A DNA stretch of 33,542 nt, from assembly GCA_029862005.1 (NCBI GenBank), contig JAOTYD010000035.1, forward strand, positions 1 to 33,542, in the 5' to 3' direction. The notes beneath the pieces were generated by a model, which did not search any database, was not told where the DNA came from, and saw only the letters and a list, made by a program, of their open reading frames with translations. Origin of the DNA: Gammaproteobacteria bacterium (lineage in GTDB: Bacteria; Pseudomonadota; Gammaproteobacteria; GCA-001735895). Position numbers and translations under genes: made by a program. This document shows positions 24,715 to 30,835 of the stretch, piece by piece; position 1 is the stretch's first letter; each line of letters starts with the position of its first letter.

Positions 24715-25057
24715 CTGGTTACTGGTAAAACATCTATAGGCCAATTTGGTAATGCTTTTTTCCTCGGCGGTGAGGATCTAATTTTCGATATTTTGAAGTC
24801 TGTTTTCTCCAACGGAGAAGCTGAAAAATGTGCACTGAGCTTAGTACTTCGGCCAGAGGCGGGCACCAAATTACCGTGTTACTTGTATTAGGCATTTCTG
24901 AAAAATAAATTGATTTCTGCGAGGCCGTGCAACAAAATCAGGTCTGGAGTTACCTGCAAGCTGGTTAGTATGAATCAATTTGGAGACAAGGAGTCATTGT
25001 CGAAAATAAAAATACGGTTAGAGACAAACTTTTCAACGTAAAATAGGAGTGATGAAA
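24715..25057. other. 343-bp gap with one dispersed-repeat copy
   Basis: No coding frame is supported. The repeat copy at 24801-24867 lies in the middle, and the 3' part (about 24960-25050) should hold the promoter and ribosome site of the lysine-rich protein gene (AGGAG at 25045-25049). Confidence 0.5.
24801..24867 (+). repeat. dispersed intergenic repeat, copy 2
   Basis: TGTTTTCTCCAACGGAGAAGC, then after a gap TGAGCTTAGTACTTCGGCC and AGAGGCGGGCACC. Upstream, TGAGGATCT matches the same position before copy 3, so these two copies share a longer left arm than the rest. Confidence 0.65.
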
Positions 25058-25537
25058 ATGGCTGTAAAGAAAAAAGTCGCAAAGAAAAAGAAGCCTGCTG
25101 CTAAGAAGAAGGCAGCTACGAAAAAGCCTACCAAGAAAAAGGTAGTTGCAAAGAAAAAGAGACCTGCTGCCAAGAAGAAGGTAGCTAAGAAGAAGAGGCC
25201 TGCAGCTAAGAAGAAGAGGTCTGTTGCCAAGAAGAAGAGGCCTGCAGCTAAAAAGAAGGTAGCTAAGAAGAAGCCTGCCAAGAAAAAGAGGCCTGCTGCC
25301 AAGAAGAAGGCAGCCAAGAAGAAGCCTGCCAAGAAAAAGAGGTCTGCTGCCAAGAAGAAGAGGCCTGCAGCTAGGAAGAAGGTAGCCAAGAAGAAGCCTG
25401 CCAAGAAGAGAGCAGCTAAGAAGAAGCCGGCCAAGAAAAAGAGGTCTGCTGCCAAGAAGAAGAGGCCTGCAGCTAAGAAGAAGGTAGCCAGGAAGAAGTC
25501 TGCCAAGAAAACGGCAGTCAAGAAGAAGCGCAAGTAA
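25058..25537 (+). CDS. lysine/alanine-rich histone H1-like (AlgP-type) nucleoprotein
   Basis: The protein has 159 residues and is nearly all Lys, Ala, Pro, Arg and Ser, in repeats of the type KKRPAAKKK, KKPAKKKR and KKVAKKK. I start at the ATG at 25058 with AGGAG 8 nt before it. Such proteins (AlgP of Pseudomonas, the histone H1-like Hc2 of Chlamydia) bind DNA non-specifically and condense it. At DNA level, AAGAAG-rich units of 24-60 bp are repeated, so the gene is prone to length change. The opposite strand is also open (Leu/Phe/Ala-rich), a mirror effect. An intrinsic terminator follows directly, so it is monocistronic. Confidence 0.9.
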   Translation: MAVKKKVAKKKKPAAKKKAATKKPTKKKVVAKKKRPAAKKKVAKKKRPAAKKKRSVAKKKRPAAKKKVAKKKPAKKKRPAAKKKAAKKKPAKKKRSAAKKKRPAARKKVAKKKPAKKRAAKKKPAKKKRSAAKKKRPAAKKKVARKKSAKKTAVKKKRK

Positions 25538-28593: not shown

Positions 28594-29664
28594 TTAGACT
28601 TTGCCCTGTGAGCGGGAAAATTCAAGCATACGCTCGATCGGCTTCAGCGCTTTCTTGCGTATCGACTCGTCGATATGGATCTCATGGCTAACATCATGCT
28701 CATCTTCGAGAACCGCGGCAAGGTTATCCAGGCTGTTCATTGCCATCCACGGACAATGGGCACAACTGACACAGGAGGCGCTGTCACCACCTGTTGGCAC
28801 AGCAATCAGTTTTTTACCGGGAGCCGCTTCGTGCATCTTATGAAAAAGGCCAAAATCGGTTGCAACGATCAGGGTTTTCGCTGTGGATGCTTTCGCAGCA
28901 TTGATCAGCTGCGTCGTGGAACCGACCACACTCGCCATATCAAGCACCTCGGTAGGCGACTCCGGGTGCGCAATAACCTCGGCATCAGGATGCTCCTGCA
29001 TTAGTTGTCGCAGTGAGTTTGCCTTGAACTCATCATGTACGACACAGAAACCTTGCCAGTTGAGAATGTCGGCACCGGTCTGCTTCTGCACATAATTGCC
29101 GAGATGACGATCGGGCGCAAATATAATCTTCTCGCCTCTGGCGTGCAGGTGGGCCACGATATCGACGGCATTTGATGAAGTAACCACCCAGTCAGAGCGC
29201 GCCTTGACCTCGGCACTGGTGTTGGCATAGACCATCACGGTCCTGTCGGGGTGCTGGTCGCAGAGGGCACTGAAGCTCTCGATCGGACAGCTCAGATCGA
29301 GCGAGCATTCCGCGGCCAGATCCGGCATGATTACGCGTTTTTCCGGGTTGAGAATCTTTGCTGTTTCGCCCATGAAACGCACTCCTACTACGACTAGCGT
29401 GGTTGCAGAATGGCGATTACCGTAATCAGCCATACCCAGCGAATCACCGACGTAGCCACCGGTGGCATCTGTCAGGATCTGCAGCTGCTCATCGACATAA
29501 TAATGCGTGATGAGTACCGCATTCCTCTTTTTGAGCAAGATCTTGATTGTCTCGAACAACGAGTCGCGTTGCTTTGGCGTCAAACTGCGCGGCTTGGCCG
29601 CGTGCAACGCCTTGCTACGTATATCATCGATAAGCTCAAGCGGAATTGTGGATGCTTTACCCAT
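28594..29664 (-). CDS. nadA: quinolinate synthase A
   Basis: The protein has 356 residues from the ATG at 29662-29664; a TTG at 29676 would add four. NadA condenses iminoaspartate with DHAP to quinolinate for NAD synthesis, using an oxygen-sensitive [4Fe-4S] cluster. The three cluster cysteines are in place: [22 protein letters not shown] and [10 protein letters not shown]. Also seen are [36 protein letters not shown] and [11 protein letters not shown]. NadB and nadC are not in the window, so it is a stand-alone gene here. Confidence 0.97.
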
Positions 29665-29823
29665 AAACAACTTCAAACGAGATAAGGATCTAGGCAGAAT
29701 AAACGACTGTTTTTAATTAAGCCATGGATTTCGATAAACCGCAATCCCGGACAAACCACTCGCTGCGCAAATTCTTAGCGCCCATTTTTGGGTGATTTCG
29801 GAAGCATTTAATCGCTTATGGGG

Positions 29824-30113
29824 GACTGATTTCTCGAAAGGAGACACTCAGTAACTGGGGTGGGAGGCAATCTTCGGCCTATTCTGTTGAAAAACTCTAA
29901 ATTTTTCTGGATGAGAAATTTATTTTCGATATTACGAATTTTAATATTTAACATACGGTTGGGAGACTAAGAACTAACGATCTCTTCCGACAAGGCAACT
30001 GGTGAGCTTACATAGTCAGTGCTAAGAGAAGTTTAGAATGCTTTGCTATATTGCAGAAAAATAGCCTTCCATTTTTATCGAGTTTTTCAACAGAATAGGC
30101 CACAAGCGGACAT
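29824..30113 (+). repeat. dispersed intergenic repeat, copy 6, split by an insertion
   Basis: Left part: GACTGATTTCTCGAAAGGAG, ACACTCAGTAACTGGG, GGAGGCAATCTTCGGCC (to 29879). Right part: GGCCACAAGCGGACATT (from 30098). Joined at one GGCC the two parts give a normal family copy, comparable to copy 7 (GAAGGCAATCTTCGGCC, then CCAATAGCGGACATT). The 218 bp in between are the inserted element. Confidence 0.7.
29880..30097. mobile_element. MITE-like element with perfect terminal inverted repeats
   Basis: The 218-bp segment begins TATTCTGTTGAAAAACTC (29880-29897) and ends with its exact reverse complement GAGTTTTTCAACAGAATA (30080-30097). GGCC flanks it on both sides, as a 4-bp target duplication would; because GGCC is palindromic, it could instead extend the inverted repeats to 22 bp. 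The AT-rich interior codes for nothing. Short length, perfect ends and insertion inside a repeat that exists uninterrupted elsewhere point to a non-autonomous element moved by a transposase encoded elsewhere. Confidence 0.7.
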
Positions 30114-30168
30114 TCATCTACTCAATTAATACCAACTATTTAGATATACGCCTATTTTTAATGCCAAC

Positions 30169-30462
30169 CTAAGCGCTCCAGGATTGACACCAGCCCCTGG
30201 CGTTAACAAGCTTCCCTGAGAATATCGCGCACCGCCCCCATTTAGCAGTCCTTGAGCCTTTGAAGAGTTGACATTCGGCACATCGTCTTGTTGCATATGG
30301 GGATTCATGGACATACTCAAGCGCTTTTGCGGCGGGACCCTCAGGATCTAGTTTCGAGTTTTCGGCCGCCAATGCAATCCCCTGGTGGGTTATATTGCTT
30401 AACGGTAAAGCAATTACCCCCGTACCAAGTACGCGTAGAAATAATCTGCGGGATTTTGTCAC
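30169..30462 (-). CDS. hip: high-potential iron-sulfur protein (HiPIP)
   Basis: The protein has 97 residues. HiPIPs are small periplasmic [4Fe-4S] electron carriers, often between the bc1 complex and a reaction centre or terminal oxidase. Residues 4-33 form a Tat signal (SRRLFLR, then VLGTGVIALPLS, cleavage near ALAAEN), as expected because the cluster is inserted before export. The four cluster cysteines are Cys61, Cys64 (C-x-x-C), Cys78 (WGRCAIF) and Cys92 (GWCQSW). Its presence hints at a respiratory chain with a HiPIP branch. It stands alone, between two large intergenic regions. Confidence 0.95.
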   Translation of the reverse strand: MTKSRRLFLRVLGTGVIALPLSNITHQGIALAAENSKLDPEGPAAKALEYVHESPYATRRCAECQLFKGSRTAKWGRCAIFSGKLVNARGWCQSWSA

Positions 30463-30835
30463 CGTGGATTCTCCTTAATATTCATTCAAATCGCCGGGTG
30501 AGGATAACATGTAATTTTGGTTTAACCTGTTGATTTATCAATACACTTTCATCTCTATGCCTTCATTGTCGCCTATGGGTCGGATATCGCCGCTGATCAA
30601 TCGAATTTGAGCGTCAGCTTTCTCAGTAACGGACTCTCATAGAACCCAGGTAGAAGGCAATCTTCGGCCAATTGATTCGGCCAATAGCGGACATTGCCAT
30701 GGCTCGGCTTGATTAAAACTCCAAAGGTAAATCGGCTTCCCAAATTTGTACCGGGGACTCTTCAACTGCATCGTTTAAACGACTCATCGTCCCGGACTGA
30801 ATGAAACAATGATTGAGGCATATAGGTCCTGGTGG
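30463..30835. other. 373-bp gap with one dispersed-repeat copy
   Basis: No gene is supported. It contains the hip promoter region and repeat copy 7 (30605-30695). Confidence 0.5.
30605..30695 (+). repeat. dispersed intergenic repeat, copy 7
   Basis: TTTGAGCGTCAGCTTTCTC, GTAACGGACTCTCA, GGTAGAAGGCAATCTTCGG, then a local duplication of TTCGGCCAAT (two copies 3 nt apart), ending AGCGGACATTGCC. It serves as an approximate empty-site model for the split copy 6. Confidence 0.7.

Follow-up and report, generated by a model that had tools for sequence, protein, structure and literature searches.

Only two systems close to the element described here, MITEPye1 and the ISMac2-linked MITEs, were found in the open-licence literature. 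MITEPye1 of Paracoccus yeei is a 159-bp element linked to the IS1182 family (PMC11578231), while the MITEs of 160 and 169 bp found in the archaeon Methanosarcina acetivorans are partnered by ISMac2, also of the IS1182 family (PMC3852290). Within this family, ISPse1 has a length of 1653 bp, terminal inverted repeats (TIRs) of 16/16 and 4-bp direct repeats (PMC3281130), and some IS1182 members target palindromes (Siguier et al., cited in PMC5678879). A preference for palindromes is also known for IS1397, ISKpn1, IS621, ISPpu9, ISRm22 and others, which target REP sequences (PMC1525189), the latter being recognised by a GTAG or CGTC tag and a RAYT transposase (PMC3733652). No description of the 218-bp family reported below was found in the open-licence literature, although ISfinder may list a longer relative, nor was any description of its palindromic intergenic repeat found in paper searches; literal searches with the letters of the TIR and of the target gave no relevant match, as judged by the titles listed.

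Here, we analysed a stretch of 33,542 bp from a gammaproteobacterial genome (contig JAOTYD010000035.1), hereafter designated as the window, which contains a 218-bp element that is very probably, as judged from comparative sequence data, a non-autonomous transposon (MITE) of IS1182 type. This assignment is based on the 18-bp ends shared with IS1182 elements, the 4-bp duplication, the palindromic target and an empty orthologous site; counted against it are the single complete copy in this genome and the absence there of any match to the IS1182 transposase used as query. The MITE family to which the element belongs is constant in length, palindrome-targeting and presumably old.

The element and its genomic context

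The sequence-only reading of the window had proposed a 218-bp MITE-like insertion at 29880-30097, with perfect 18-bp TIRs, GGCC on both sides and no gene of its own. Our analysis confirmed the coordinates and each of these properties, and supported an insertion into a dispersed repeat with a 4-bp duplication. The features of the locus are as follows (coordinates in the window, strand, description and basis):

29880..30097, plus: 218-bp element, very probably a MITE, without ORF of at least 60 aa (sequence, ORF scan, copies in relatives)
29880..29897, plus: left TIR, 18 bp, TATTCTGTTGAAAAACTC (same or nearly same ends on IS1182 elements)
30080..30097, minus: right TIR, 18 bp, perfect (TIR match)
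29876..29879, unstranded: GGCC, left copy of the 4-bp target duplication (flanks, empty-site comparisons)
30098..30101, unstranded: GGCC, right copy of the 4-bp target duplication (flanks, empty-site comparisons)
29861..29879, minus: left half of the 34-bp palindromic target, read outward as GGCCGAAGATTGCCTCCCA, the weaker half (consensus GGCCNNNAGCNGNCNTTCR)
30098..30116, plus: right half of the 34-bp palindromic target, GGCCACAAGCGGACATTCA (consensus, target score)
29829..29879, plus: left part of the dispersed repeat that the element interrupts, copy 6 (repeat comparison)
29916..29927, plus: subterminal block of the left end, AAATTTATTTTC, at 37-48 bp (family-wide block, partly kept here)
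30050..30061, minus: subterminal block of the right end, at 37-48 bp (family-wide block, partly kept here)
28594..29676, minus: nadA (quinolinate synthase), downstream neighbour (PF02445, 352 bits)
30169..30462, minus: high-potential iron-sulfur protein gene, upstream neighbour (PF01355, 56.7 bits)

The element thus separates nadA from the gene for the high-potential iron-sulfur protein, lying about 200 bp upstream of the nadA start, and is probably without gene function at this site. Searched with up to 3 mismatches, the TIR 18-mer occurs at two places only in the window, the two ends of the element, and at none in 100 shuffles, and an ORF scan of 29880-30097 detected no ORF of at least 60 aa. 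Short, bounded by TIRs, devoid of a transposase gene, flanked by a target-site duplication and provided with a partner having the same ends (see below), the element displays these characteristic features of a MITE. Elsewhere in the window, positions 25049-25537 are occupied by a Lys/Ala-rich repetitive ORF with many short repeat units; it is histone H1-like in appearance and had no Pfam match.

Copies in the genome, in the genus and across proteobacteria

The genome that carries the window (3.99 Mb in 105 contigs, 97% complete) has one complete copy of the element. A lone perfect TIR was detected at G000:C34:24563-24580 (L002 1501-1518), adjoining a GACC tetramer; it has neither a second end nor a recognisable MITE interior, and is probably the remnant of a MITE or an IS. 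One further TIR site, with 3 mismatches, is at control level. The sequence-only reading had advised a search for the TIR and held that its proposal would fail if all relatives shared the same arrangement and no other copy existed. This was not the case, and other copies were found in relatives. Matches to the element at E<=1 occurred in 40 of 57 genomes (own genome included), many of them short. At E<=1e-28, they were found in 11 other genomes of the same genus (G028, G012, G011, G002, G001, G017, G025, G023, G013, G018 and G006), the best match per genome being 71-83% identical and some being cut by contig ends, and a partial match was also present in G030. Complete copies are mostly 214-218 bp in size. 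One copy, in G018 (L050 671-919), reaches 241 bp and contains an insertion of about 25 bp resembling the adjacent AT-rich stretch. The flanks differ between copies, which marks them as separate insertions, so that the occurrence of several copies, as expected for a MITE, is provided by the complete copy and the lone end in the own genome together with the differently flanked copies of the relatives.

A single scan of the GTDB collection, using the exact inner 14 bp of both ends separated by a gap of 170-200 bp (total size of 198-228 bp allowed, other lengths and variant ends being outside the count), revealed 101 stretches with 102 elements, every one of 215-223 bp. Record titles assigned 34 stretches to alpha-, 19 to beta- and 34 to gammaproteobacteria, 3 to other phyla and 11 to no class; the three from other phyla are all MAG records, in which a binning error is possible. 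In 39 host genomes, chosen for their match at gaps of 170-200 bp and thus all positive for it (39/39), the same pair of TIRs was found in none (0/39 each) at gaps of 139-169 or 201-231 bp. A plasmid search with the element returned weak matches in all of the best 20 of 100 matching records (E about 8), a plasmid search with a Rhodobacteraceae relative gave no match, and one matching stretch was found among viral contigs.

Target-site duplication and empty sites

The empty site that the sequence-only reading had proposed to look for, with a single GGCC, was found in G007, a genome of the same genus whose nadA is 96% identical. The G007 sequence aligns with window positions 29501-29879 at 88%, the alignment stopping exactly at the left edge of the element, and past this edge follow a single GGCC and the right repeat half. 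The best alignment score (579) was that of the one-GGCC join, as compared with two GGCC (570), zero GGCC (562) and the filled site (563). Since synteny with G007 ends right after the repeat, the right side of this empty site is defined by the repeat half only. In G009, the relative next in closeness (nadA 94% identical), similarity ends about 110 bp before the element, and four further nadA loci showed no similarity at the site.

The earlier proposal that a normal copy is restored once the flanks are joined at one GGCC agrees with the other repeat copies of the own genome. Of 30 other repeat-like sites, 29 yielded a locus for the join test; the one-GGCC join was uniquely best at 14, the zero-GGCC join at a single site (by 15 points vs 14) and the two-GGCC join at none, with 14 ties. 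Copy 7 (30649-30696), which had been suggested as an approximate empty site, proved a poor model, as it carries two GGCC 9 bp apart and is matched equally well by the join with one GGCC and by that with two (L120). Its sequence reads GGCC AATTGATTC GGCC, most own-genome copies looked at having one GGCC, and this double GGCC may be the excision footprint of a similar element.

The 4-bp palindromic target described from the window was upheld as far as its length and its sequence at this site are concerned, but the family tetramer need not be a palindrome, duplicated tetramers including GACC, AGCC, GGCT and TGCC. Identical 4-bp direct flanks were present in 62 of 92 MITEs (8 stretches near contig ends and 2 duplicates having been dropped from the 102), in 3 of 8 further MITEs of the genus and in 12 of 16 ISs, a count that leaves out L239 and L254 for their degenerate ends and becomes 12/18 with both; the remaining 30 of the 92 MITEs have no identical 4-bp flanks.

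IS1182 elements with the same ends

An insertion sequence with the same ends, also on the list of proposed checks, was identified in relatives. IS copies having both ends with 0-1 mismatch occur in G029 (L036, L037, L038, L072 and L080) and G017 (L056); these ISs are 1.57-1.59 kb in size, with ends as in the MITE, and the right 28-33 bp of the element match the IS ends of G029 at 85-89%. The L038 transposase exhibits the Pfam domains DUF772, DDE_Tnp_1_6 and DDE_Tnp_1 and scores 392.7 bits against the IS1182 model NF033551, well above the cut-off of 270, which was also passed by all six further transposases checked. In L036, the gene is broken into several frames, its two long pieces scoring 192.4 and 137.6, below 270. 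With a partner transposase above the NF033551 cut-off and a 4-bp duplication as in ISPse1, the element has the attributes of the IS1182 type. The signature formed by its ends and flanks, previously judged recognisable but unassigned, fits the IS1182 family in both its ends and its 4-bp duplication.

When searched with the L038 transposase (E<=1e-10), however, the own genome gave no match; such matches were found in 3 of the 39 genomes searched, a set that includes the own genome and to which G029 does not belong. Of the 39 MITE-bearing genomes from the GTDB scan, 17 had a match to the transposase (E<=1e-40), and among 30 fetched transposase loci, 12 displayed both ends 1.3-1.9 kb apart (inner 14 bp, up to 3 mismatches); the reversed control 14-mer gave 4 single hits in 3 of the 30 loci. 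IS1182 copies with related ends (GATTCTGTTGAAAAAGTA) and GGCC beside both ends were also observed on plasmids of Azotobacter, Pseudomonas and Aeromonas (L273, L274 and L275), the L273 copy lying between two features annotated as EamA family transporter.

A palindromic target

Read outward from the element, the flanks follow the consensus GGCC NNNA GC N G N C N TTC R. Flank information falls to about background from position 20, so that joining the flanks yields a palindromic target of 34 bp centred on the duplicated tetramer, and it is at this centre that MITEs and ISs are mostly found. With a matrix trained on other loci only and excluding the tetramer, the two-sided target score exceeded the 99th percentile of 45,111 control sites for 75 of 91 MITEs (one MITE with an N in its flank being dropped), 6 of 8 genus MITEs and 15 of 16 ISs. 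The top control score was 22.3, and only 5 of 115 elements exceed it; some of the high-scoring control sites may be real repeats. The window site has a two-sided score of 12.8 (12.0 for its stronger half), reached by a fraction of 0.0004 of 2465 control sites.

The own genome contains 31 half-site matches, the interrupted copy included, vs 5 for the reversed control. When up to 3 mismatches are allowed, 21 of 57 genomes contain the full palindrome, with 57 copies vs 0 for the control in G046, 1 vs 0 in the own genome, and 26 vs 9 in the 56 genomes other than G046 taken together (own genome included). The palindrome is therefore frequent in certain genomes but scarce or degenerate in the majority. 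Of 27 sites with up to 5 mismatches in six stretches from G046 and G006, 22 fall outside ORFs of at least 90 aa, 2 overlap an ORF end and 3 are inside, and the target repeat is, like REP sequences, a dispersed, mostly intergenic palindrome. These stretches (L266-L271, from several contigs of G046 and from G006:C150) consist of dense, mostly intergenic arrays, some pairs of palindromes being tens of bp apart. An interpretation of the arrays as integron attC sites was set aside on reading the six stretches, in which attC core motifs were not visible.

A conserved interior

When the interiors of 93 elements were compared by blastn, they fell into 11 clusters of 2-19 members and 25 singletons. A profile grown from one cluster oriented 82 of 87 unique elements. 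With the cluster of each element left out of the model, 79 of the 82 scored above all of their own 20 shuffles, the failures being L130a, L143a and L197a, and 64 reached at least 10 bits, the highest score being 6.4 for shuffled and 3.1 for reversed controls; in this test the left-out cluster applied to scoring only, orientation and alignment having used all members. Among elements fetched later, outside the orienting model, 19 of 20 scored at least 20 bits and one (L211a) scored 0.5; this set includes some close kin of members, and one of its 21 stretches (L223) was dropped as a duplicate or at an edge. Overall, the interior family comprises 102 of 108 unique elements, the six that do not score being in L138, L151, L155, L168, L192 and L211, and median interior identity is 0.37 vs 0.26 for shuffled sequences.

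Each end has an AT-rich subterminal block at a distance of about 37-48 bp, and a G5/C5 block is located some 80 bp from one of the two ends. The motif AAATTTNNGCC, allowing up to 2 mismatches at 31-58 bp from the end, was detected at 39 of 102 left and 53 of 102 right ends, as compared with a mean of 3.5 and a maximum of 10 in a shuffled control measured on the left end. Compared at equal distances, the two subterminal profiles showed no significant mirror symmetry (the observed value was reached by 339 of 2000 permutations), and exact symmetry is therefore not claimed.

Alternative explanations

Two readings concern the flanks of the element and its mode of insertion. Once GGCC is counted with the 18-bp TIRs, the arms of the window element are perfectly complementary over 22 nt, which might suggest that GGCC is part of the element and that 22-bp inverted repeats insert without any target duplication. 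This is extremely improbable, as the identical 4-bp flanks are non-palindromic in 47 elements (38 MITEs, 1 genus MITE and 8 ISs) and are therefore direct repeats, a tetramer that is inverted rather than direct was seen in 6 of 116 elements only, and empty sites retain one GGCC; inclusion of GGCC in the TIR is refuted by these non-palindromic direct duplications. A replacement of an inverted repeat, as described for IS1272, would involve the same IS family and an inverted-repeat target (PMC5678879). That mode, however, produces no duplication and destroys the target palindrome, whereas both halves and a 4-bp duplication remain here; the IS1272-like mode is contradicted by the empty site and its probability is practically nil.

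Other readings concern the nature of the interior. An origin of the element by internal deletion of an IS1182 copy, as generally proposed for MITEs, is compatible with the terminal 18 bp common to element and IS, and with the extended match of the right end to the ISs of G029. However, the interior profile found no match in nine ISs, even at a loose threshold (the "left" IS end being unreliable for some loci, both ends were covered), the subterminal block was present in 1 of 32 IS ends, far below its occurrence at both MITE ends, and the interior family is common to three proteobacterial classes. As the interior does not match those of the ISs tested, a simple internal deletion is not supported, and we regard it as unlikely. 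A structured-RNA gene with the TIR pair as the base of a hairpin, the second circumstance under which the MITE proposal was to be abandoned, is very improbable. The whole element does fold better than its shuffles (z -4.63), and column-shuffle tests keeping the ends gave z of -4.3 and -6.1 on the two strands for a cluster of 13, -3.7 on one strand for a cluster of 5, and -2.0 on both strands for the window's own cluster of 14. Yet without its TIRs the interior has a z of -0.94 on the minus strand, 45 of 200 shuffles being as stable, which indicates that the whole element folds well because of its ends. Other clusters reached z values up to +0.8, the 82-element alignment yielded no interior consensus structure, and helix-like covariation (0.62) was hardly stronger than in a parallel-strand control (0.54), so that a conserved fold with compensatory changes was seen neither across the family nor in the window interior, although single clusters may have a fold of their own. 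Rfam gave no match at E<=1, and no sigma-70-like promoter or terminator match was found, where just 1.8 and 0.7 were expected.

Transposition and evolution of the family

Under the IS1182-type MITE interpretation, a DDE transposase of this family would have been supplied in trans by an IS since lost from the own genome or unassembled in it, and would have moved the element via its ends. The enzyme would recognise a palindrome of the form YGAANGNCNGCTNNNGGCCNNNAGCNGNCNTTCR and join the ends to it with a 4-bp stagger spanning the central GGCC, with gap repair then duplicating GGCC. The conserved interior would most likely act as cis DNA for transposition, providing, for example, extra contacts for the transposase or a host factor.

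The recurrence of length, ends, target and interior in three classes, together with an interior unlike that of the tested ISs, suggests a long-lived non-autonomous lineage. A broader proposal, to which we would give slightly less than an even chance, is that these elements are not decaying IS leftovers but an old lineage that parasitises successive IS1182 transposases, is aimed at a common 34-bp palindrome and carries in its interior a selected cis-acting device absent from its partner ISs. If so, one architecture of 215-223 bp, with 18-bp ends, a AAATTTNNGCC-like block about 37-48 bp from each end and an asymmetric G5/C5 block, would have been kept across alpha-, beta- and gammaproteobacteria while interiors diverged to a median identity of 37%; the interior might then be, for example, an assembly site for a host factor or a transposase that outcompetes the IS, or serve a second cellular function. 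Both the purpose of a MITE interior and the way in which a DDE transposase of IS1182 type selects the middle of a palindrome of 34 bp become testable, and the target consensus offers a handle on the intergenic repeat itself.

Comparison with known systems

The IS1182 ISs recognised by NF033551, with the same ends in relatives and a 4-bp duplication, are the likely mobilisers of the element. Unlike them, the window element lacks a transposase, and none of the nine ISs tested matches its interior. Insertion into dispersed extragenic palindromes is shared with the REP-targeting ISs, but those named in that work belong to IS3, IS110, IS4, IS256 and IS5, the terms "IS1182" and "MITE" being absent from its main text (PMC1525189). 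The ISMac2 MITEs are likewise short and non-autonomous with an IS1182 partner, and one table row of that source, whose values 26 and 4 we take as inverted and direct repeats, may list a 4-bp direct repeat (PMC3852290); they differ in their sizes of 160 and 169 bp and in their archaeal host. The closest named relative found is MITEPye1, which, according to its published description, also lacks an ORF, is intergenic, and has 18-bp TIRs akin to the ends of an IS1182-family element (ISPye18) and 4-bp direct repeats. Compared by that description only, it differs in size (159 bp vs 215-223 bp here), and it is described from one species, in a transposable-element section that reports neither a palindromic target nor interior homology (PMC11578231), whereas the present family combines both across three proteobacterial classes.
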